Of a DNA stretch of 64,000 nucleotides, positions 28,125 to 57,462 are shown piece after piece. The notes below the pieces were generated by a model, which made no database searches, was not told the origin of the DNA, and was given only the letters and a program-made list of their open reading frames with translations. The translations under genes and the position numbers were made by a program. The DNA comes from Methanobrevibacter sp. V74 (GTDB lineage Archaea; Methanobacteriota; Methanobacteria; Methanobacteriales; Methanobacteriaceae): NCBI RefSeq assembly GCF_963082495.1, contig NZ_CAUJAN010000001.1, positions 372,001 to 436,000 of the forward strand, read 5' to 3'. Position 1 is the stretch's first letter. Each line of letters begins with the position of its first letter.

Positions 28125-28140
28125 TTGTGGTGTTTTGTTA

Positions 28141-30162
28141 ATGAATATTAAAAGTAAAGGAAAAAATCTAGCCAAAAAGCTTTTAATGAGACATTTTGAT
28201 TATTATTTGCAACCAACTATTGATTTAAAAGTCAATGGTGATGAAATAATAATTAAAACTAATCAAAAAGTTATATCTCATTCATATATAGAAATTAAAC
28301 ATAGAACAAGTGGCAGGAGATTAGTTTCAAAAATAAAATCATCAACTGCAATATTTAAGGTTTCTGAGTTACTTGAAATGGCTGATAAAGGATTATTGGA
28401 TTTTTATTTCAAAATTATGGGTAAATTAATATTTTATAAAAAAAGAATTTTATTTATTCCTACAAATCACTTATTCAAAGCAATATTTTACGAGAAAAAT
28501 CTTGTTTTAAATGCTTATAAAACTAATTACGGTAACTTATCTGTAAAAATTGAAGATATTGATTTTGATTATACAATTAATGAGCTAAAAACTGTTGATG
28601 ATAATAAGATATTAATTGAAGGTACTTTTGATGTTTTAAATGAGGATATTCATAATATTGATAAAACTACAATAATTGCTAATCATCGTCTTGAAAGTCA
28701 AAGTAATGTTTTTGACCTTGATTTTAAAGTAGATGAAACAAATAAAAAACATTATACTTTTAAAGGCGTCATTGATGAGATTAAAAGTTCATCAGATAAC
28801 ATATTAGATTTGAGAATGGATTTCTATTTAAGAATTTATGATGAGGATATTTATTACCAGTCTTTAATTGATTTATCAACATTCAAGTACTTTGAGAATG
28901 ATGAAGATAGGTTTCTAATTAAGTTTGAAAAAGATGGTAAAGTATATTCATTTTATGCAACTGAAAATAGACATTCTCTTGCATTATGGATTACTACAGA
29001 ATCTGCATGGTTGAAATCATATACTATTGCATGTGGGAGAACTGTTTATTCAAAAACTTTAAAAAAACCATTAAATAATAAAATGATTTTCTTTGAAAGC
29101 TTTTTCGGCAAATCATATTCAGGCAATCCTAAATATTTATATGAAGCAATGCTTGAAATGGGGATGGATAAAGAATATACTTTTGTATGGGCTTATTCTG
29201 GAAAAAACAAAGATATTATTCCGGGTAATCCAATTATAGTTGATCGATTCGAATCTGGGGATTATTATAAGTACTTAGCCTTATCAAAATATTGGATTAA
29301 TAATATTATTTTCCCAATTCATAAAAAAAGGCCTGGAAATGTCTATTTACAAACTTGGCATGGTACTCCACTTAAGAAATTGGGTTATGATATTACAATT
29401 CCTGGGCCTGAAGTTCAAGGAAGGCAAAATTTCTATAACGAATCTAGAAACTGGGATTATTTAATTTCATCAAATCATTATTCAACAAAAATATTTAGAA
29501 GAGCATTTAAATTTGAAAAAGAAATTTTAGAGGATGGTTATCCTATTAATGATATATTCTTTAGAGATAACATGGACTTTGTTAAAACTTTAAAATCAAA
29601 ACTAGGCATCGATGAGGATAAAAAAATCATTTTATATGCTCCAACTTGGAAGGATGATGAACAAAATGGATCATGGGAACATTATTTTAATTTAGAAATT
29701 GATTTTGAAAGGTTATATAAGGAATTTTCAGATGAATATGTCATAATTTTAAAAATGCATCATTTAGTTTCTGAAAATCTCAAAATTGATGAAAAAATGA
29801 AAGATTTTGCAATAGATTTATCAAGTTATGATGATATTCAGGAGTTATATGTTTTATCTGATATATTAATAACTGATTATTCGTCAGTATTTTTTGATTA
29901 TTCACATTCAAGAAAACCTATTTTATTCTTCGTTCCTGATTTAAATCATTATATTGAAAATGTACGTGGTTTGTATTTAAATATGGAAAAGGAACTTCCA
30001 GGACCACTTATAAAAGATAATGATGAATTGATTGAGGTAATTAAAAATATTGATGATGTTTCAATAGATTATCGTGATAAATACAATGAATTTTATAATA
30101 GATTTTGTAATTTATGTAGTGGGGATTCTGCTAAAATAATTATCGAAAAAATTTTCAAATAA
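28141..30162 (+). CDS. CDP-glycerol glycerophosphotransferase (TagF/TagB-like), block A
   Basis: About 673 aa. The N-terminal third is a beta-rich module with the repeat signature IEIKHRTSGRRLVSKIKSS (about 60-80), also found in three copies in the paralogue at 52653. The C-terminal catalytic domain (about 305-673) has FFESFFGKSYSGNPKY, TWHGTPLKKLGYD (about 405), APTWKDDEQN and ILITDYSSVFFDYSHS (about 577). It transfers glycerol phosphate from CDP-glycerol to a growing polymer at the inner membrane face. I use ATG 28141, eight bases after GGTG. First gene of a block (transferase, LicD, ATP-grasp/HAD, long GT2) that recurs in decayed form at 52.6-57.5 kb. Confidence 0.88.
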   Translation: MNIKSKGKNLAKKLLMRHFDYYLQPTIDLKVNGDEIIIKTNQKVISHSYIEIKHRTSGRRLVSKIKSSTAIFKVSELLEMADKGLLDFYFKIMGKLIFYKKRILFIPTNHLFKAIFYEKNLVLNAYKTNYGNLSVKIEDIDFDYTINELKTVDDNKILIEGTFDVLNEDIHNIDKTTIIANHRLESQSNVFDLDFKVDETNKKHYTFKGVIDEIKSSSDNILDLRMDFYLRIYDEDIYYQSLIDLSTFKYFENDEDRFLIKFEKDGKVYSFYATENRHSLALWITTESAWLKSYTIACGRTVYSKTLKKPLNNKMIFFESFFGKSYSGNPKYLYEAMLEMGMDKEYTFVWAYSGKNKDIIPGNPIIVDRFESGDYYKYLALSKYWINNIIFPIHKKRPGNVYLQTWHGTPLKKLGYDITIPGPEVQGRQNFYNESRNWDYLISSNHYSTKIFRRAFKFEKEILEDGYPINDIFFRDNMDFVKTLKSKLGIDEDKKIILYAPTWKDDEQNGSWEHYFNLEIDFERLYKEFSDEYVIILKMHHLVSENLKIDEKMKDFAIDLSSYDDIQELYVLSDILITDYSSVFFDYSHSRKPILFFVPDLNHYIENVRGLYLNMEKELPGPLIKDNDELIEVIKNIDDVSIDYRDKYNEFYNRFCNLCSGDSAKIIIEKIFK

Positions 30163-31157: not shown

Positions 31158-32474
31158 ATGAAAAATATTTTAGTGTTTCCATGTGGTTCTGAAATAGGGT
31201 TGGAAATCCATAATGCTTTAAAATACAGTAAAGATTTTAAATTATTTGGTGGGTCTAGTGTAGATGATCATGGTAAATTTGTATATGCGAATTATATTTC
31301 AGATATTCCCTTTATTGACGATGAAAATCTTTTAGATTGCTTAAACAGCATTATTGATGAATATGATATTGATTTAATTTATCCTTCACATGATGATGTT
31401 GTTTTAAAATTAGCAGAACTTAAAAATGATTTAAATGCTCATGTAGTCGTATCTAATGATGAAACTTGTGACATTTGCAGATCTAAAAGTAAAACTTATA
31501 AATATTTCTCAGATTTTGATTTCATACCTAAAGTGTATGATATTTCAATAGATAGTTTTAACAACATGGAAAAAGTTATAAAAGTTGCAAAAGATGAATT
31601 TCCTATATTTTTAAAACCTGATATAGGTCAAGGAGCCAAAGGAGTTGCTATTGCAAATAATGTGGACGATTTAGAACATCATTTCACGGAAAACCCATCT
31701 TTAATAGCTGTCGAGTATTTGCCCAATGAAGAATATACTATTGATTGTTTTTCAGCTAATGGGGAATTATTGTATTGTGAGATGAGAGAAAGAATTCGTG
31801 TAAAAGACGGGATTAGTGTAAATGCAATAACCATTAAAACTGAAAAGCGTGTTAGAGAAATTGCTCAAATTATTAACTCTAAATTAACTTTTTATGGGGC
31901 ATGGTTTTTTCAACTTAAAAAAGATAAGAATGACGAATATAAACTTCTAGAAATAGCTCCAAGAATTGCCGGCACCATGGCATTACATAGGAATACTGGA
32001 ATAAATTTCCCATTATTAACATTATACACTCATTTAGGAATAGATGTAAGTATAATTTCTAATGAAAATAAATTAACCATTGATAGGGCATTAACTAATT
32101 GTTTTATTTATGAAATTGATTATGATAGGGTTTATCTTGACTTTGATGATACAGTATTTGTCAAAGGTAAAGTTAACACTTATCTAATGATGTTTTTATA
32201 CCAATGTGTAAATGAAAACAAACAGATTATCCTGATTACAAAACACCTTAAAGATATAAATGAAACATTAGAAGCTTTAAAAATAGATATTAACTTATTT
32301 GATGAGATTATAACATTGACAAAAGACGATGATAAATTTAAATATATGGATAATGATGTGCCCTCAATTTTCATTGATGACTCATTTTCAGAAAGATTAG
32401 CTATTTCAAATAAACTTAAAATCCCCGTATTTGATTTAGATGCTGTAGAATCATTAATTAATTGGAGAATGTAG
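31158..32474 (+). CDS. ATP-grasp ligase fused to a HAD-type phosphatase domain
   Basis: 438 aa. Residues 1-310 form an ATP-grasp protein of the carbamoyl-phosphate-synthase-like type: FLKPDIGQGAKGVAI loop, VEYLPNEEYTIDCFS and the metal-binding LLEIAPRIAGTMALH. Residues 320-438 are a small HAD domain with Asp328-Phe-Asp330-Asp-Thr in YLDFDDTVF, Thr in LITKHLK (motif II-like) and Asp407-Asp408 in FIDDSFSER. The ligase would attach an acid or amino acid to a polymer precursor, and the HAD part might remove a phosphate; both are inference. It is coupled to licD upstream (6 bases) and GT2 downstream (4 bases). A relic of its HAD end survives at 55444-55609. Confidence 0.82.
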   Translation: MKNILVFPCGSEIGLEIHNALKYSKDFKLFGGSSVDDHGKFVYANYISDIPFIDDENLLDCLNSIIDEYDIDLIYPSHDDVVLKLAELKNDLNAHVVVSNDETCDICRSKSKTYKYFSDFDFIPKVYDISIDSFNNMEKVIKVAKDEFPIFLKPDIGQGAKGVAIANNVDDLEHHFTENPSLIAVEYLPNEEYTIDCFSANGELLYCEMRERIRVKDGISVNAITIKTEKRVREIAQIINSKLTFYGAWFFQLKKDKNDEYKLLEIAPRIAGTMALHRNTGINFPLLTLYTHLGIDVSIISNENKLTIDRALTNCFIYEIDYDRVYLDFDDTVFVKGKVNTYLMMFLYQCVNENKQIILITKHLKDINETLEALKIDINLFDEIITLTKDDDKFKYMDNDVPSIFIDDSFSERLAISNKLKIPVFDLDAVESLINWRM

Positions 32475-49650: not shown

Positions 49651-51033
49651 TTATAGTTTTGGATAAAAAATTTTTTAGTTAAGGTTGGTGAATTTTTTAA
49701 TCCAATTTTTATAATATGAATCATTATTTATAGTCCTATAAAATTCTTTTTCGAATTGTTCTTCCATGGATTCTATTGTATCAAATAAATAGTTTCCTAT
49801 GTGTTTTTTTTATTGATTTCCAGACTTGTTCTATTGGGTTTAAGTGAGGGGAATGTACTGGTAAATGAATTAATTTTATATTTAATATTTTTGATGCTTG
49901 AATCACTAATTTAGCTTTGTGAACTGAGTAATTATCCAATATTGCTACAATTTTTCTTTCTTTTTGTAGATTATTGATTAAATGTTTTTTGTTTAGTGAT
50001 TCAATTAGTATTTCTTTTTGAATATTTTTCTATGTTTGTGTGCTTTTCAGGATTTAATTTATTTGCTTTATTTTTTATTTTTACTAAAAATTATTTCTTC
50101 AGAACTATTATTGTTTGCTATAAATTCTTTAAATTCATTTTTTAATGAGTTAAATTGTGTTTTCAGATTTTAGTTGATTATATATTTCAGTTTCATCTAA
50201 TTTCGTATCTGCCAAAATATTTTTAAGTTCTAATATTAAATTTTCATTTTCGCAATTGACAATTTTAAGCTGGATTAATGATTTTATTTCCTTAAATGTG
50301 CGTGTATTTGGTTGAAATAAGATTAATGAATTGCCATTTACTGCTTGGTATCCATTTGTGTTTAATTTTATTCTCGTAGTTATTTTTGTCTGTCTATTTT
50401 TTTTGTTCCTAATAAATAGTATAATCGGCTTGTATTATCTTTATTTTGCACTGCTGTTTGATCTGCGAATACTAATATTGTCTTTTTTCAAATCTATTTT
50501 CTTTTGTGTTTTTTTTTAGTTGTTCTGAAGCATCTTTTGGTGCTTCAGCAGGAATAATATAGGGTTTTCCATTATCCGAAGCCTAAATTTTTCATTATCC
50601 GCCTAATTTGTCTATCACTATAAGTAACGCCAAATTCTTCGATTATTTCGTGTTTTACTTCTCTAACGCTTGTTAATTGTTTTTTTATAATGTTCTCTTT
50701 TAGTTCTTCAAATTGTTTTTCTGATAATTTTGTTTTTCGTCCAGATCCTTCTTTTCTAAGTAATCCATCAAATCCTTCTTCATTCCAAGCTTTTAACCAT
50801 GCATGGCCTGTTGGAATTGTTTTCCCACGTTTTTCTATTGCATATTTTACTGTTTCACCAGCATAAATGTCTTCAATGAATGTAATTTTTTCATAAAATT
50901 CTATATAATGTTTTAAATCAGCTTTAACTTCATGAATTTTAGAAAGTGGGATTTTTTTGTTAATATAAGCATTCCTACTCATATTAATATTTTAGTCACA
51001 TTTAATATAAATATTTTTTGTCCAAAACTATAA
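49651..51033. mobile_element. Decayed IS630-type insertion sequence with terminal inverted repeats
   Basis: TTATAGTTTTGGATAAAAAA (49651-49670) and the reverse complement of 51014-51033 match at 19 of 20 positions and bracket a broken minus-strand transposase. The length, about 1.38 kb, is somewhat more than a typical IS630 element, in keeping with internal drift. Both ends carry TATA, which fits TA-target duplication of this family, but the exact boundary cannot be fixed. Confidence 0.75.
49675..50982 (-). pseudogene. IS630-family transposase, several frameshifts
   Basis: The N-terminal helix-turn-helix part is intact for 136 codons from 50982 (TGHAWLKAWNEEGFDGLLRK, REVKHEIIEEFGVTYSDRQI). 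After a stop at 50572, the DDE domain continues in other frames: VFADQTAVQNKDNTSRLYYL (first Asp), ITTRIKLNTNGYQAVNGNS, ILDNYSVHKAKLV (second Asp), SPHLNPIEQVWKSIKK (Glu), ending NWIKKFTNLN at 49675. At least three frame changes are needed, more than programmed frameshifting could explain, so the gene is dead. Confidence 0.82.
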
Positions 51034-51097
51034 TAAAAACATATAGAAATTAATAGTAAATCTATACAAACAAATATAAGGACTTGACTATGCTGAA

Positions 51098-52564
51098 TCA
51101 ACCCAGTTAATTTAAGAGATAATTTGAAAAATATTTTTTTATTCTCCTATGTGTTGGGTTGGTTGGATCTTTGACCAGTCTATCAGGGTTTCGGTCATTT
51201 CTTCTATTTTTTTCTACTAAATTTGATTGTGCCATGTTTAGTATTCTTTTAACGGCATCTTTTCTTTCTTTTGGGTCGTTTGATAAGAGATCAGGCATGT
51301 CTAGTTTTATTAGTCCGAATAAAACATTGAAATTGGTTTTGTATTCGTGTTTTAAGTTTTTATCTTTGTGTTTTTCTTGTATTTTTTGGTCTGCGTCGAG
51401 TTTCATTGCCATTAAGTAATTAAACATGAATATGTTGGCGTAGAAGTCCTTGTTGTATTATTCCTTCTGAATATCCACTGAAGTTTTCTATGTGGATTAT
51501 GTTTTTTAATCTGTTAAAATTGGTTTCTATTTTCCATCTCTTGTTGTATAATTCTTTTAAATCTTGTGTGGTGAATTTTTCGAATGGTAAATAGCTTGCA
51601 AGTTTTATTCTTTGATTTAAATTGTCTAAATGTTTTAATGCTAATTCTACTTCGTTTATTTTTTTACTATTGGTTATTGTAGAGGTTAATATGAAATCTG
51701 TTTGTGTATCTGCTTATGCATGAGGACTCTAAAATCTGATTAATTCCTTTTTTAATCTATTGAGGTGAGGATTATTTAATTCTTTTAGTTGTTTTTCAGT
51801 GTATCCAATATTTGGTGCATCGCAGATGCTGGTATCACCTGCCAGTATTGAATATCCTTTATAAAGACCAGGTCTATCCGGGTCATTGTAAATTCCGTCG
51901 ATAAAGTCTTCATTCATGTCTACATAGCAAATATGATTAAGCAATTTTCTTCTTTGATAAAATATTGGATTTAGTTAAAGTCATATTTTTATCCTTCTTA
52001 TCACTTCTAATAAAATTTTATAGCTTCTACAGCAGTTGTTCGACCACAATCATAGAAAGGATATTTGATTATACTTTCTAAAATAGTTTTTCGATTTCGA
52101 ACATAATGCACTTTTCCATCATCATATTATATAATTTTCGATTTTCATATTTATCTAAGTTTGCCCAAGTTTCATTACATTATTCACTAAAATTTATCAT
52201 CAAAAACAACTCCTAAATCAAAAAAATCCAATCATGAAATTCTAAATAACTATTATATAAAAATATAATTTACCAATATTTAATATTAACTATTGTATAA
52301 TACTTAAATTAGATATAAAATAATTTAAACTAATTTAAAAACTATTAAAATAATTATGTCTAATTACAAGTAAATTAAATTAATTTAGAACAAAAAAATA
52401 ATCAAAAATGAAAAATCAAAAACCCCTAAAACAAGTAAAAAAATAAAAAATAAACCATATAACATAATATAATATCAAATAAAGGATTTCAATAAGAAAA
52501 AATAAGAAAATAAAATAATATAATTACAAATTAAAAAATAAATTTCTTAAATTAACTGGGTTGA
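51098..52564. mobile_element. Decayed IS4-type insertion sequence with perfect 19-bp terminal repeats
   Basis: TCAACCCAGTTAATTTAAG (51098-51116) is the exact inverse complement of 52546-52564. Together they bracket a broken minus-strand transposase and about 340 bases of very A-rich non-coding DNA on the right side. Total length 1467 bp. No target duplication is visible in the immediate flanks. It lies 64 bases from the IS630-type element and just upstream of the duplicated transferase block. Confidence 0.82.
51107..52200 (-). pseudogene. IS4-family transposase, several frameshifts
   Basis: Pieces from N- to C-terminus on the minus strand: a scrambled start near 52200 (WANLDKYENRKLYNMM), HICYVDMNEDFIDG, LYKGYSILAGDTSICDAPN (first Asp region, 51944-51729), then YNKRWKIETNFNRLKNIIHI (the Y-x-x-R-W-x-x-E catalytic motif near 51540) and the final 106 codons (51427-51107). 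Stops and shifts between the pieces, and loss of part of the middle, make it inactive. Confidence 0.8.
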
Positions 52565-52652: not shown

Positions 52653-55443
52653 ATGAAATTAATTAATCTATCTAAAAAATCTAGGAATATTCTTAAAAAA
52701 TATAGAAATGCGCAGAATAATTTATTTTTAAGATATTATAACTTTGATGACTACAAGGATTTTGATTTAAATATTGATGTAGATGGTATTGTTTTTAATT
52801 TTCAAAATGATAAAGTCATTAAAAATTTATTTTTATGTGTTGAACATAGATTATCTAAAAGAGTTTTAGAAAAAGAGATTAATTCATCTGTGGTTTATTT
52901 AACTTTTGAAGAATTATTTGGATTGGCAAACTTCGGTATTTTTGATTTTTATTTTCAAGTTAACATAACATCATTTAAAATCAATGAAAGAATTAAATAT
53001 AAATTAAATACTTGCCCAATTTTTTTAGAAAAGATGATATGTTGTTTAAATTTTATTCAACAGTTGATTCTGATTTATCATTAAATATTACTAAAGCGTA
53101 TATCACTGAATTAGATGTTGTTGATGATAAACTATTAATGAAAGGTAATTTTGAGGGTTTGGATGAAAGTATTGATAGGTATTTGGTGATTAAACATAGA
53201 TCTTCTGGATTGAGGTTGGAAGAGAAAATTGAATCTTCCAAAGTATGTGTCCCTATAAATAAATTATTAGAAATAAGTGAAAACGGTATTTTCGATTTTT
53301 ATTTTCAATTTAATGAAGAATCCTTCAATGCCCAAGACAGAATTAAGTATACCTTAAATAGTCAGTGCTTGAAATCTTTTAAAAAAGAAGATACCTTATT
53401 TGAATTTTATCAAACAATCAACTCCAATTTATCATTAAAGATTAATAAAGATTATTATATTAATGAATTAAAGGTAATTGATGATAAATTAGTATTGAGA
53501 GGTAATTTTAATGGTGTTGATGAAAAAGACAATAGATTCATTGAAATTAAACACAGATCTTCTGGACTGAGGTTAGAACAAAAAATTAAATCTTCTGCAG
53601 CATGCTTTCCTATAAATCAGTTGTTGGAAATAAATGAAATCGGTATATTTGATTTGTATATGAAAATTAATGATGATAATGAATACAACAAAATAAGAAT
53701 TAAGTATTGTTTCAATAATCAATCTTTTAAGTTGCTTTTCAAAGAACAAAATCTTGTATTAACTACTTATTCAACAAAATTCAATGAATTGTCCTTTAAA
53801 CTTCAAACTATGGATTTTGATCATAATATTACATATTTGGATAATTGTGATGATAGAGTATTAATTAAAGGAAATTTTGAACCTTTAAATGAAGAAATAA
53901 AAAATATTGATAAAGTACTGATATTCAGTAAAAATCGTGCAGATTCCAGTATAAATTATTATAAAATGGATTTTAATGAAATTAATGATAATTATTTTAA
54001 TTTTGAGGGTTTTATTGATGAAATAAATGTTTTAGATGAAAAAACTGTAAATTTGAGACTAGATTTTTATATTAGAATTTATGTTGATGATATTTATTAT
54101 CAAAGTTTAGTTGATTTATCTAATTATAAAAGTTTTAAAAATCATGAGGATTGTTTTTTAATTAAAAAAGTATGTTGTAATAAGGTTTATTCTTATTATG
54201 CAACAAGTGATAAATATTCTTTTGCTCTATGGATTACTAAAAGTACTTCTTGGAATAAAGCATATGAAATAGCTAAGGGGAAAACAATTTATGATAAAAC
54301 TTCAAAAGAAGAAATATTAAATGAGAATATGGTTTTCTTTGAGAGCTTTTTAGGTAAGTCTTATAGTGGTAATCCAAAATACATTTATGAAACTATGCTT
54401 GAAATGGGTTTGGATAAGAAATATACATTTGTTTGGGCATATTCCGGTGAAAACAAAGATCTTATTCCTGGCAATCCAATAATTGTTGATAGATATAAAG
54501 CAGGAGATTATTATAAATATCTTGCCCAAGCTAAATACTGGGTAAATAATATTATATTTCCGATACATAAGAAAAGACAAGGAAATGTTTATTTACAAAC
54601 TTGGCACGGTACCCCTCTTAAAAAATTAGGTTTTGATATTACAATACCAGGACCTGAAGTTGATGGCAGACCAAATTTTTATAGTGAGTCAAGAAATTGG
54701 GATTATTTGATTTCTTCTAACGAATATTCCTCTGAGATTTTTGAAAGGGCTTTTAAATTTAATAAAGAGTTTTTGGAAGTAGGATACCCTATCAATGACA
54801 TATTTTTTAGAGACAATGCCGAGTTAATCGATAATTTAAAGTCTAAATTCAATATTTCAAAAGATAAAAAAATTATTCTTTATGCTCCAACTTGGAGAGA
54901 TGATGAACAAAATGAATCATGGGAGCACTATTTTAATATAGAAATAGATTTAAAGAGGCTTTTCATGGAATTTAAAGATGAATACGTTGTATTGTTAAAA
55001 ATGCATCATTTAATTTCTGAAAATCTTACTATTGATAAAGAACTGCAAGATTTTGCTATTGATTTATCTGATTATGAAGATATACAAGAATTATATCTTC
55101 TATCAGATATTTTAATAACAGATTATTCATCAGTATTTTTTGACTATGCTCATTTAAAAAAACCTATTTTATTTTTCACACCAGATTTAAATAATTACAT
55201 AGAAAATATAAGGGGATTATATTTAAATATGAAAAAAGAATTGCCTGGACCAATTATAAAAGATAATAATGAGGGGGGGGGGGGGGTATATATAGGTTAT
55301 ATAAAACTTTAATAAATACAATAAGAAATATTGATAATGTTAAAAAAGAATATGAAGAAAGATATGATGAATTTTATGAAAGATTTTGTTCATTATGTGA
55401 TGGAACATCAGCAAAAAAAATAATTAAACAAGTTTTTAGATGA
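52653..55443 (+). CDS. CDP-glycerol glycerophosphotransferase, block B, currently broken at a T7 and a G14 tract
   Basis: Paralogue of the gene at 28141. Frame one runs from ATG 52653 to the T run at 53020-53026, where a one-base change passes into the main frame (53012-55312). The main frame has three copies of a beta-rich module marked by IKHRSSGLRLEEKIESS and a TagF-like domain (FFESFLGKSYSGNPKY, TWHGTPLKKLGFD, ILITDYSSVFFDYAHL). At the G14 run (55273-55286) the frame leaves the family sequence and stops after VYIGYIKL. Adding one G or removing two restores YRLYKTLINTIRNID, ERYDEFYERFCSLCDG, KKIIKQVF and a stop at 55441-55443. Full length would be about 930 aa. As written it is probably off; a phase-variable state is likely but unproven. 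Confidence 0.75.
55273..55286 (+). repeat. G14 homopolymer inside a transferase gene
   Basis: Fourteen consecutive G in DNA of about 27-30 percent GC, by far the longest G or C run I see in the window. It lies within the coding region, about 45-50 codons before the natural end. The tract codes glycine in the open state. Length changes of one base switch the downstream frame. Confidence 0.85.
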
Positions 55444-55609
55444 TAATAATTTTTTAAGTGTTTTGAATGATATAGCTGAAAAGTATAGATTTATGGATAA
55501 TATTAAATCAATTATTGATGATTCCTTTATTGAAAGATTATCTATAAAAAAAACTTAATATTTGTTTGATTTAGATGTTATCGAATCATTAATAGATTGG
55601 AAAATGTGA
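55444..55609 (+). pseudogene. Relic of the HAD domain of the ATP-grasp/HAD protein
   Basis: The sequence reads EKYRFMDNIKSIIDDSFIER, LSIKKT, a stop, then YLFDLDVIESLIDWKM and a TGA at 55607-55609. This matches the end of the intact protein at 31158 (FKYMDNDVPSIFIDDSF, FDLDAVESLINWRM). The LicD gene and the whole ATP-grasp part are missing between it and the transferase. It shows that block B once had the same gene order as block A. Confidence 0.85.
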
Positions 55610-55629: not shown

Positions 55630-57462
55630 ATGTTGAATGAATTTGAATATAAATTATCTGTAGTGGTTTTAGTTTATAATACTGAGGATTATCTTGAAGA
55701 GTGTTTAGATTCACTTATTAATCAAACATTAGATAATATTGAGATAATTTGCGTTAATGATGAAAGTACAGATAATAGTTTAAATATTCTTAAAAAATAT
55801 GCTAGAAAATATGATAATATTAAAATTATAGATCAAAAAAATCAAGGTGGTGCTGTTGCAGGCAATAATGGTCTTAAAGTAGCTAAAGGAGAATATGTAA
55901 CTTTAATTGATTCAGATGATATTGTTGTTAGGGATGCTTATGAAAAAATGTATAATAAAGCTAAACAAACAAATTCAGATATAGTAAGTGGAAAACCTTA
56001 TGTATATTCAGGTAATTATTTATTTAATCTGGTAGGTGCAAGGCATGACCTGTGGGATGAAGAAAGAGTTGTTGATGTTAAAAAAGATTTGGATATTTTT
56101 TATGATGTTTTTTATTGGAATAAAATTTACAAAAAAGAGTTTATTGAAAAAAACGATATTTACATGATTCCTGGAAAATTGTATGCTGATGCCCCATTTG
56201 TTTTTAAAGCATATCTCAAAGCAGATAAAATAACTTTAATTACAGATCTTGTTTATTATTGGCGTTCTCGTCGTAAAAATACTTCAATTACAAGAAATAT
56301 TTTGGATTTATATAATTTAAAAGATAGGATGGATAATTTTTATGTTTTGAGGGATTATTTTAGTGACGATGATGAACTTTTTAATAGGGTTATTAAACTG
56401 TATCTTGAGAGGTTTTTTTTCCCTATTACTGGGATTTTAAAAAATTCATCTTATGAAAAAATATATTTAAATGAATTATATGAAATATTGAGCAATATTG
56501 AAGATATTTATGATAATGAATATATTAATATTGTTTATAATTTATGTGCTTATTTTATTCTAAATGAGGAATTTGATAATTTAAAAGAATTTTTATTAAA
56601 TTCTACCACTTTAAAAGATACTTTTGTTGAAAATGGTAAAGTATATTGGGATTTAGAATACTTTAGGAATCCAAAATATAATATCCCAGATAAAATATTC
56701 GAAATCAATAATATTCATAATAATTTTATTAATATAAGTGATATAAAAGTTGATTCGAAATATATTTATATGGATGATATTTCCTTACCAAATAATCTGG
56801 AAATAGATGAATCTAACGTTATATTTGAAGGTTTAACTAAAAAATATGAATCAAAAGATAGGAATACCTATAAATTTAATTTAAAACGAGTTGAAAAGAA
56901 TAAATTCAATGTTAAAATACCTATTAAAGAAATTGATAATATTAATAGTTACGATGTATTTTTAGAATTTAAATATAATGGAAAAAAAGAAGATTTCAGA
57001 ATAAATAAAAAGAATTTTACAAAAAAATTAGATGAAGATGTTATAAATCAGAATGATAATGTTTTAGTTTTTTTTACAAAGTTTAACAACTTATCATTTA
57101 TAAATGCAGATGTTAAAAATATTTTTGAGTTAGACATTAAAAAAGATAGGTTAAAAATAATTCCTAAAAAATATGACAGTATAAACTATAAAATATCTAT
57201 TGATTATAAAAAGAAAATTGAACGGGTATATTTTATTAATAATGATAGTCAGTCATGTAATGATTTTGAACTTAAATGGAAATTTTCATTAGATGAAAAT
57301 GTTTTATATAACCTATATATAGAAATTAATAAAAATAGATTCAAATTAAAGTCTAGACATTTTGAAAACTTCACTAATGAAATAATCCATGGCGATAAAT
57401 TTAAAATAAAGATTTTTGAAAAAGATAATGAGATTTTCATTGTTAAAAAATTAGTGGGTTGA
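55630..57462 (+). CDS. Long GT2 glycosyltransferase with C-terminal accessory domain, block B
   Basis: About 610 aa; paralogue of 32478. The GT-A domain shows LSVVVLVYNTEDYLEECLDS, VNDESTDNSLNIL and TLIDSDDIVV; the middle (KIYKKEFIEKNDIYMIPGKL) and the beta-rich C-terminal region also align along the whole length, but with much more divergence toward the end. An ATG at 55621 directly follows GGGG; the ATG at 55630 has the better spacing and gives MLNEFEYKLS, like MTNEYKLS of the paralogue. Unlike its upstream neighbour it is intact, so it may still act. Confidence 0.84.
   Translation: MLNEFEYKLSVVVLVYNTEDYLEECLDSLINQTLDNIEIICVNDESTDNSLNILKKYARKYDNIKIIDQKNQGGAVAGNNGLKVAKGEYVTLIDSDDIVVRDAYEKMYNKAKQTNSDIVSGKPYVYSGNYLFNLVGARHDLWDEERVVDVKKDLDIFYDVFYWNKIYKKEFIEKNDIYMIPGKLYADAPFVFKAYLKADKITLITDLVYYWRSRRKNTSITRNILDLYNLKDRMDNFYVLRDYFSDDDELFNRVIKLYLERFFFPITGILKNSSYEKIYLNELYEILSNIEDIYDNEYINIVYNLCAYFILNEEFDNLKEFLLNSTTLKDTFVENGKVYWDLEYFRNPKYNIPDKIFEINNIHNNFINISDIKVDSKYIYMDDISLPNNLEIDESNVIFEGLTKKYESKDRNTYKFNLKRVEKNKFNVKIPIKEIDNINSYDVFLEFKYNGKKEDFRINKKNFTKKLDEDVINQNDNVLVFFTKFNNLSFINADVKNIFELDIKKDRLKIIPKKYDSINYKISIDYKKKIERVYFINNDSQSCNDFELKWKFSLDENVLYNLYIEINKNRFKLKSRHFENFTNEIIHGDKFKIKIFEKDNEIFIVKKLVG

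Follow-up and report, generated by a model that had tools for sequence, protein, structure and literature searches.

A 14-G tract set by an insertion in a TagF-like transferase gene of a methanogen: a plausible contingency locus among the many poly-G tracts of the Methanobacteriaceae

Phase variation through homopolymer tracts is a textbook trait of bacteria. Long G or C tracts are found in the coding DNA of surface-biosynthesis genes of Neisseria, Helicobacter and Campylobacter, where tract length sets the reading frame, and these genera also carry such tracts in promoters and in restriction genes. The NgoAV type I restriction system of Neisseria has its poly-G switch inside hsdS. The locus described here, a G14 tract, resembles the first group in being a long G tract in the coding DNA of a surface-biosynthesis gene whose frame depends on its length, and differs from it in that the host is archaeal, the tract is part of an insertion near the end of the gene, and it is known from one assembled length. 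Methanosphaera stadtmanae is presumably a member of the same family as the organism studied here. In the passages available from PMC4060949, this species is presented as an extreme case, with a strong excess of runs of at least 8 between genes, and the excess is reported there without a link to surface genes or to switching. The adhesin-like gene Msm_0173 was described as frameshifted in M. smithii KB11 (PMC5814497, available passages). The passages available from PMC9431525, PMC8371274 and PMC13076061 contain nothing on tract switching in methanogens, and no description of homopolymer phase variation in methanogens was found in the open-access literature, among the matches listed; an earlier note on this DNA stated that few well-described methanogen cases are known. 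C-terminal phase variation was defined in Helicobacter canadensis, in which the tract lies toward the 3' end, so that a change in its length alters the C-terminus and does not switch off expression, as would be the case here; all 29 tracts varied in read data in that species, whereas the present tract is known from the assembly alone (PMC2823697, available passages).

The window, that is, the whole 64-kb stretch of DNA that was analysed (C1:372001-436000), belongs to a source genome of 2,299,297 bases in 15 contigs. The run of 14 G in AT-rich DNA announced by the earlier note was confirmed at its exact coordinates (Table 1); it consists of exactly 14 G, with A before and T after, in a window of 27% G+C, and is not a product of chance. 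It was the sole G or C run of at least 8 found by direct scan of the window, none of 100 shuffled windows reached the observed count of such runs, and Markov models of order 1-4, fitted with the tract excluded, predicted between 7e-8 and 1.04e-4 G/C runs of at least 14 in 2.3 Mb, which places its length beyond chance, as at simple-repeat phase-variation loci. Slippage at the tract is likely. The source genome as a whole has six G/C runs of at least 8, and the three of at least 10 are this G14, a G11 and a C16.

The open reading frame that carries the tract was found to match the Glyphos_transf family PF04464 with 344 bits against a gathering score of 22.1, which bore out the earlier placement of the tract in the coding region of a surface-polymer transferase and assigns the gene to one of the classes usually switched (surface, restriction). 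The TagF-like enzyme is a predicted CDP-glycerol polymerase. The domain is incomplete in the assembled frame, where the match stops before the end of the profile. The nearest solved structure, with the intact paralogue as query, was TagF 3l7i, aligned up to chain residue 713, so that the part lost from the window frame belongs to the family. As assembled, the protein ends in ...NNEGGGGVYIGYIKL. A second frame 3' of the tract contains no stop before the normal end and reads IYRLYKTLINTIRNIDNVKKEYEERYDEFYERFCSLCDGTSAKKIIKQVFR, this open frame encoding the peptide IYRLYKTLINTIR, and the third frame reaches a stop after YI. This reading of the three frames showed that the earlier statement, according to which the assembled frame leaves the family and another frame continues to the normal end, was correct. 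The frameshift at the tract takes off the last 44 family-like residues, and tract length shifts the gene between full and truncated frames, as it does at a switching locus.

Table 1. Features of the transferase locus and related sequences (window positions).
Feature	Positions	Strand	Basis
Intact paralogue, no tract	28135..30162	+	PF04464 match to 367/367
Two small upstream ORFs	50572..51427	-	50572-50982 transposase-type HTH domains; 51107-51427 no Pfam match
N-terminal piece of transferase gene (first repeat), different frame	52653..53084	+	ORF reading
Assembled TagF-like CDP-glycerol glycerophosphotransferase (766 aa, C-terminus cut short)	53012..55312	+	PF04464 E 9e-103, profile 9-323/367
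T7 tract, second frameshift, at which N-terminal piece and main ORF diverge in frame	53020..53026	+	ORF reading
G14 tract	55273..55286	+	Direct scan
Insertion, 35 nt = 13 G + 22 nt, out of frame as assembled	55274..55308	+	No junction gap in five homologues once omitted
21-nt exact inverted copy of 57301-57321	55287..55307	+	Sequence identity with reverse strand
Remaining family C-terminus, 44 codons + stop, out of frame with preceding ORF	55309..55443	+	16/16 columns invariant in the other five sequences retained
Remnant of internally deleted ATP-grasp gene, between transferase and next gene	55427..55606	+	BLASTP and by eye
Probable source of 21-nt copy, in next glycosyltransferase gene	57301..57321	-	Aligns by eye with L115 homologue

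The tract was found to lie within an insertion, a feature missed by the earlier note. Five homologues were aligned, namely the paralogue, L046 (G037), L047 (G052), L048 (G033) and L115 (a reindeer MAG), the last being the sole homologue from a named genome collection, with its own N-terminal part also split across two frames and its 784-aa ORF used in the alignment. After removal of the 35 nt, the window protein aligned without a gap from IIKDNNE to LINTIRNID with all five. No G or C run of at least 6 was present in L046-L048 (3.9 kb each), and no conserved tract was found in these three closest homologues of other species, so that the tract at this site is not conserved by descent, which weighs against switching. 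Comparison with related genomes had been proposed as a check; the insertion was absent from five of five homologues, and comparable G tracts are present elsewhere in the genus. The 22 nt beside the Gs include one member of an exact 21-nt inverted pair about 2 kb apart, the second member lying downstream of the tract, and the longest inverted matches obtained by chance were 14 nt (600 random 35-nt window pieces, within 3 kb) and 18 nt (400 points drawn at random from all loci, within 4 kb). Since the downstream region lines up with its homologue in L115, it is probably the copy next to the Gs that was derived, and the insertion is probably a template-switch or end-repair scar. Expansion in place of a native glycine run was ruled out, no glycine being present there in the five homologues. 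Templated insertion as a general origin of the tracts was also rejected, given that an inverted copy of at least 15 nt adjoined none of the 44 other tracts scanned, for three of which a single side was covered; the direct matches seen in L107 (19 nt), L082 (20 nt) and L093 (28 nt) resemble paralogous or repeated sequence.

The gene is not otherwise intact. A second frameshift, at the T7 tract, was also missed by the earlier note and could be a sequence error. It falls within an in-phase T TTT TTA heptamer (window 53021-53027) of the -1 slippery type, which we take to be a candidate ribosomal frameshifting site. BLASTP aligned the first 42 residues of the ATP-grasp remnant (55427-55552), which lies between the transferase and the next gene, with residues 51-69 and 392-416 of an ATP-grasp protein (31158-32471), and the last 16 residues of the remnant were placed by eye against L115. 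The upstream ORF with transposase-type domains is, judged from domain type, presumably transposon debris. Together, the T7 frameshift and the surrounding gene debris suggest that the window gene may be decaying. Evidence of constraint, drawn from comparison of the homologues, appears mixed. Against the paralogue, dN/dS was 0.07 in the catalytic part (dS 1.76, near saturation) and 0.40 in the short stretch after the tract, where the paralogue gave values of 0.13 and 0.21 against L047 and L046, respectively. Otherwise invariant catalytic columns were changed in 15/219 cases in the window gene and 17/221 in L115, followed by L048 (8/212), L046 (5/209), the paralogue (2/206) and L047 (1/205).

The two other long tracts of the source genome differ in setting. 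The G11 on contig 2 (C2:342284-342294; L006/L075) follows the signal-peptide region of an adhesin-like DUF11-domain protein and leaves the 1,128 codons behind it out of frame; this locus is a second, more classical candidate switch of the source genome. The C16 (L076 9098-9113, contig 7) lies, together with a TTT, in one broken transposase copy, and the 19 nt of TTT + C16 are absent from two sister copies that are 95-96% identical. Judged against these sister copies, TTT + C16 is a de novo homopolymer insertion and an event related to the insertion in the window. It follows that long tracts also arise where switching is implausible, which weighs against switching of the transferase. In another group of that transposon (L137-L142), one site is occupied by C9, C7 or C6 in three copies whose cores share 97.0-98.5% identity and by C5TC4 in two further copies, and a second C run differs too. 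A runs near those C runs also differ, and the differences thus represent homopolymer change between copies and not a rate.

Tracts of the same kind were surveyed in a genus set of 67 genomes, the source genome and 66 others, with one genome per species. Runs of at least 10 G amounted to 51 tracts in 25 of the 67 genomes, and 46 tracts were classified, one flanked by N and four in G062 being left out. The class was taken from an ORF of at least 100 aa within 30 nt of the tract or, failing that, from the next ORF starting within 500 nt. With this upstream limit judged by eye and the classes fixed after the tracts had been inspected, 10 tracts were assigned to adhesin-like or secreted proteins, six to sugar or glycerophosphate transferases or nucleotide supply, five to DNA methylases or specificity subunits and 25 to other genes or none, the last number weighing against the switching reading. 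The 21 of 46 tracts in or just upstream of the three classes compare with 3 of 38 controls, or 4 of 38 if one nuclease-like ORF is counted (one-sided Fisher p of 1.0e-4 and 3.8e-4, respectively), and stricter counts of 19/44 and, as the strictest, 17/44 against 4/38 gave p values of 9e-4 and 3.3e-3. For the controls, 18 points were taken 30 kb from tracts on their own contigs and 20 at round positions of four genomes, and Pfam was run on each of the 38 ORFs; the positives were L171, L179 and L193 (secreted Ig-like or beta-helix) and L185 (restriction-endonuclease-like domain). Of these 21, L104 gave no Pfam match over the part scanned, L114 had a sub-cutoff match only, L110 (IspD) is a loose fit, L089 and L090 are copies and L108 was counted twice. 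Arguable cases counted as other were L100 (SpaA-type domain above cut-off), L092 (ParB-like ORF preceding a DNA methylase) and L081 and L087 (small ORFs near adhesin-like genes).

Two of the genus tracts, in L080 (3699-3708, G006) and L102 (3609-3618, G050), are G10 runs that lie out of frame between the two Methylase_S domains of HsdS. In this they resemble NgoAV, from which they differ in being archaeal, in species other than that of the window. A search with one HsdS half found relatives in 4 of the 67 genomes, the frame being open in G055 and G049, and we regard the two tracts as marks of an archaeal type I restriction system that is a candidate for phase variation. An out-of-frame G10 was also found in the HsdM of G019, and a C12 that precedes an adhesin-like DUF11 gene by about 160 nt in G007. 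Tracts in L104 (adhesin-like) and L107 (glycosyltransferase) are in frame. The family motif of the hydrolase L095 is, as we assume, glycine-rich at the position of its G10, and that run may therefore be an ordinary site. In L084, L114 and L182 (G012, G022), a G10 was seen by eye in a look-alike context, aaatgaacac..[G10]cgtt, upstream of adhesin-like genes, lying between divergent adhesin-like genes in L084 and L114. In L093 and L094 (G036), an intergenic G10 with the repeated flank atatacgcctaat was observed near transporter-like genes.

Across the Methanobacteriaceae, runs of at least 10 G were present in 66 of 138 genomes and in 13 of 17 genera. The tracts inspected came from genomes chosen as tract-rich: eight of eight in G079, six of 20 in G078 and 25 of 42 in G076. 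A common downstream motif, ctattgttt or ggttgttt, followed 11 of the 14 tracts of G079 and G078 (L144-L157). Each of these 11 is followed, 137-279 nt on, by the ATG of an ORF whose start resembles a secretion signal; their lengths are G10-G15, all six of G079 being G11. In G076, which belongs to another genus than the source genome, 21 of the 25 tracts (L158-L163, L203-L221) were followed by a tagtctatgg-type motif, in most cases after ...tatgttta, and had 12 G (nine tracts), 13 G (ten) or 14 G (two). Fourteen of these 21 lie 241-457 nt, and one 709 nt, before a secreted-protein-like ORF, and for the remaining six no ORF was found within the sequence piece examined. Pairs of G076 tracts with flanks 93-97% identical can differ in G number, as in L158 and L160 (13 and 14) or L158 and L217 (13 and 12); the most similar pair (98.9%) had the same G number. 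Five proteins downstream of shared-motif tracts were found by Pfam to have beta-helix or Ig-like surface domains. A TATA-like stretch, recognised by eye, precedes many of the shared-motif tracts, so that tract length could alter the spacing from TATA to start. In G076, a G13 was also seen 103 nt upstream of an ORF that by eye resembles a DNA methylase (L210), and another beside methyltransferase-like sequence, likewise judged by eye (L212).

For the window gene, we propose that the G14 is a young C-terminal contingency tract, born of the insertion event and prone to slippage, whose length would decide the end of the transferase, a reading that we place just short of an even chance. One insertion event would have brought both the G run and the 21-nt inverted copy of nearby DNA. 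One length class would then add 11-12 residues (glycines plus IYRLYKT) and keep the C-terminus normal, and the other two would stop 2 or 8 residues past the glycines and lose the last 44 residues, the assembled length corresponding to an OFF length. Tract length would have to change in cells, the short form would be inactive and the surface would change with it; in addition, the T7 lesion must be an error, be bypassed or leave a working internal start. The tract would be one of many G tracts kept by the archaeal family at surface and DNA-modification genes. The retention of 16/16 invariant columns after the tract, the low dN/dS of the catalytic part, the G11 locus, the C runs of the transposon, the enrichment within the genus, the HsdS tracts and the tracts of G076 count for switching. 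The late C-terminal position of the tract, the 15/219 changed catalytic columns and the dN/dS of 0.40 after it weigh against. The claim of phase variation made in the earlier note was thus upheld in part, in that a non-chance tract sets the frame of a surface-polymer transferase and like tracts occur at phase-variable gene classes, and was weakened by the T7, the debris, the late position and the C16. Given the T7 lesion and the surrounding debris, phase variation of a working window transferase is plausible, its chances being about even.

The rival that comes nearest is that of a decaying gene, in which a repair scar and the T7 indel inactivated a redundant transferase, so that the tract may slip with nothing useful being switched; we consider this quite possible, at somewhat below an even chance. 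The two frameshifts in one gene, the ATP-grasp remnant directly downstream with a transposase-type fragment upstream, the intact paralogue 25 kb away, the C16 that arose de novo in a broken transposase of the source genome and the raised dN/dS after the tract all speak for decay. Nevertheless, the invariant columns after the tract are all retained and the catalytic part looks constrained, so that any inactivation would be recent, and the gene-class enrichment of tracts across the genus counts against decay. A sequencing or assembly artefact, by which the tract length or the whole insertion would be wrong, is improbable. Homopolymer lengths are error-prone, the T7 may be an error as well, and 21 nt is a common k-mer size; however, the tract lies inside a 551,700-base contig, and long G tracts also occur in single-contig genomes (G002, G007) and on a 2,393,271-base contig of G079. 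A false join at the shared 21-mer would have imported the flank of the other locus and was ruled out, transferase sequence being present on both sides. That the exact 21-bp inverted pair serves as inversion sites for the 2-kb segment between its members is scarcely credible: one copy has the look of coding sequence native to the next gene, the two genes are co-directional and would both be broken by inversion, and the scan of the 44 other tracts yielded no comparable inverted copy.

The family-wide pattern of tracts is a stronger result than the switching of the window gene. We consider it somewhat better than an even chance that the Methanobacteriaceae possess genome-wide poly-G phase variation, with tracts in common promoter-type elements ahead of families of adhesin-like genes and coding tracts in adhesins, sugar and glycerophosphate transferases and HsdS and further DNA methylases, which would vary both surface and methylation and of which the window transferase would be a newly born member by templated insertion. 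If true, these methanogens would resemble pathogens in varying surface and methylation pattern, and a switching trick known from bacteria would also be archaeal. If the pattern holds, these archaea could change adhesins, polymers and DNA methylation through random slippage, with a bearing on attachment, phage escape and strain differences.
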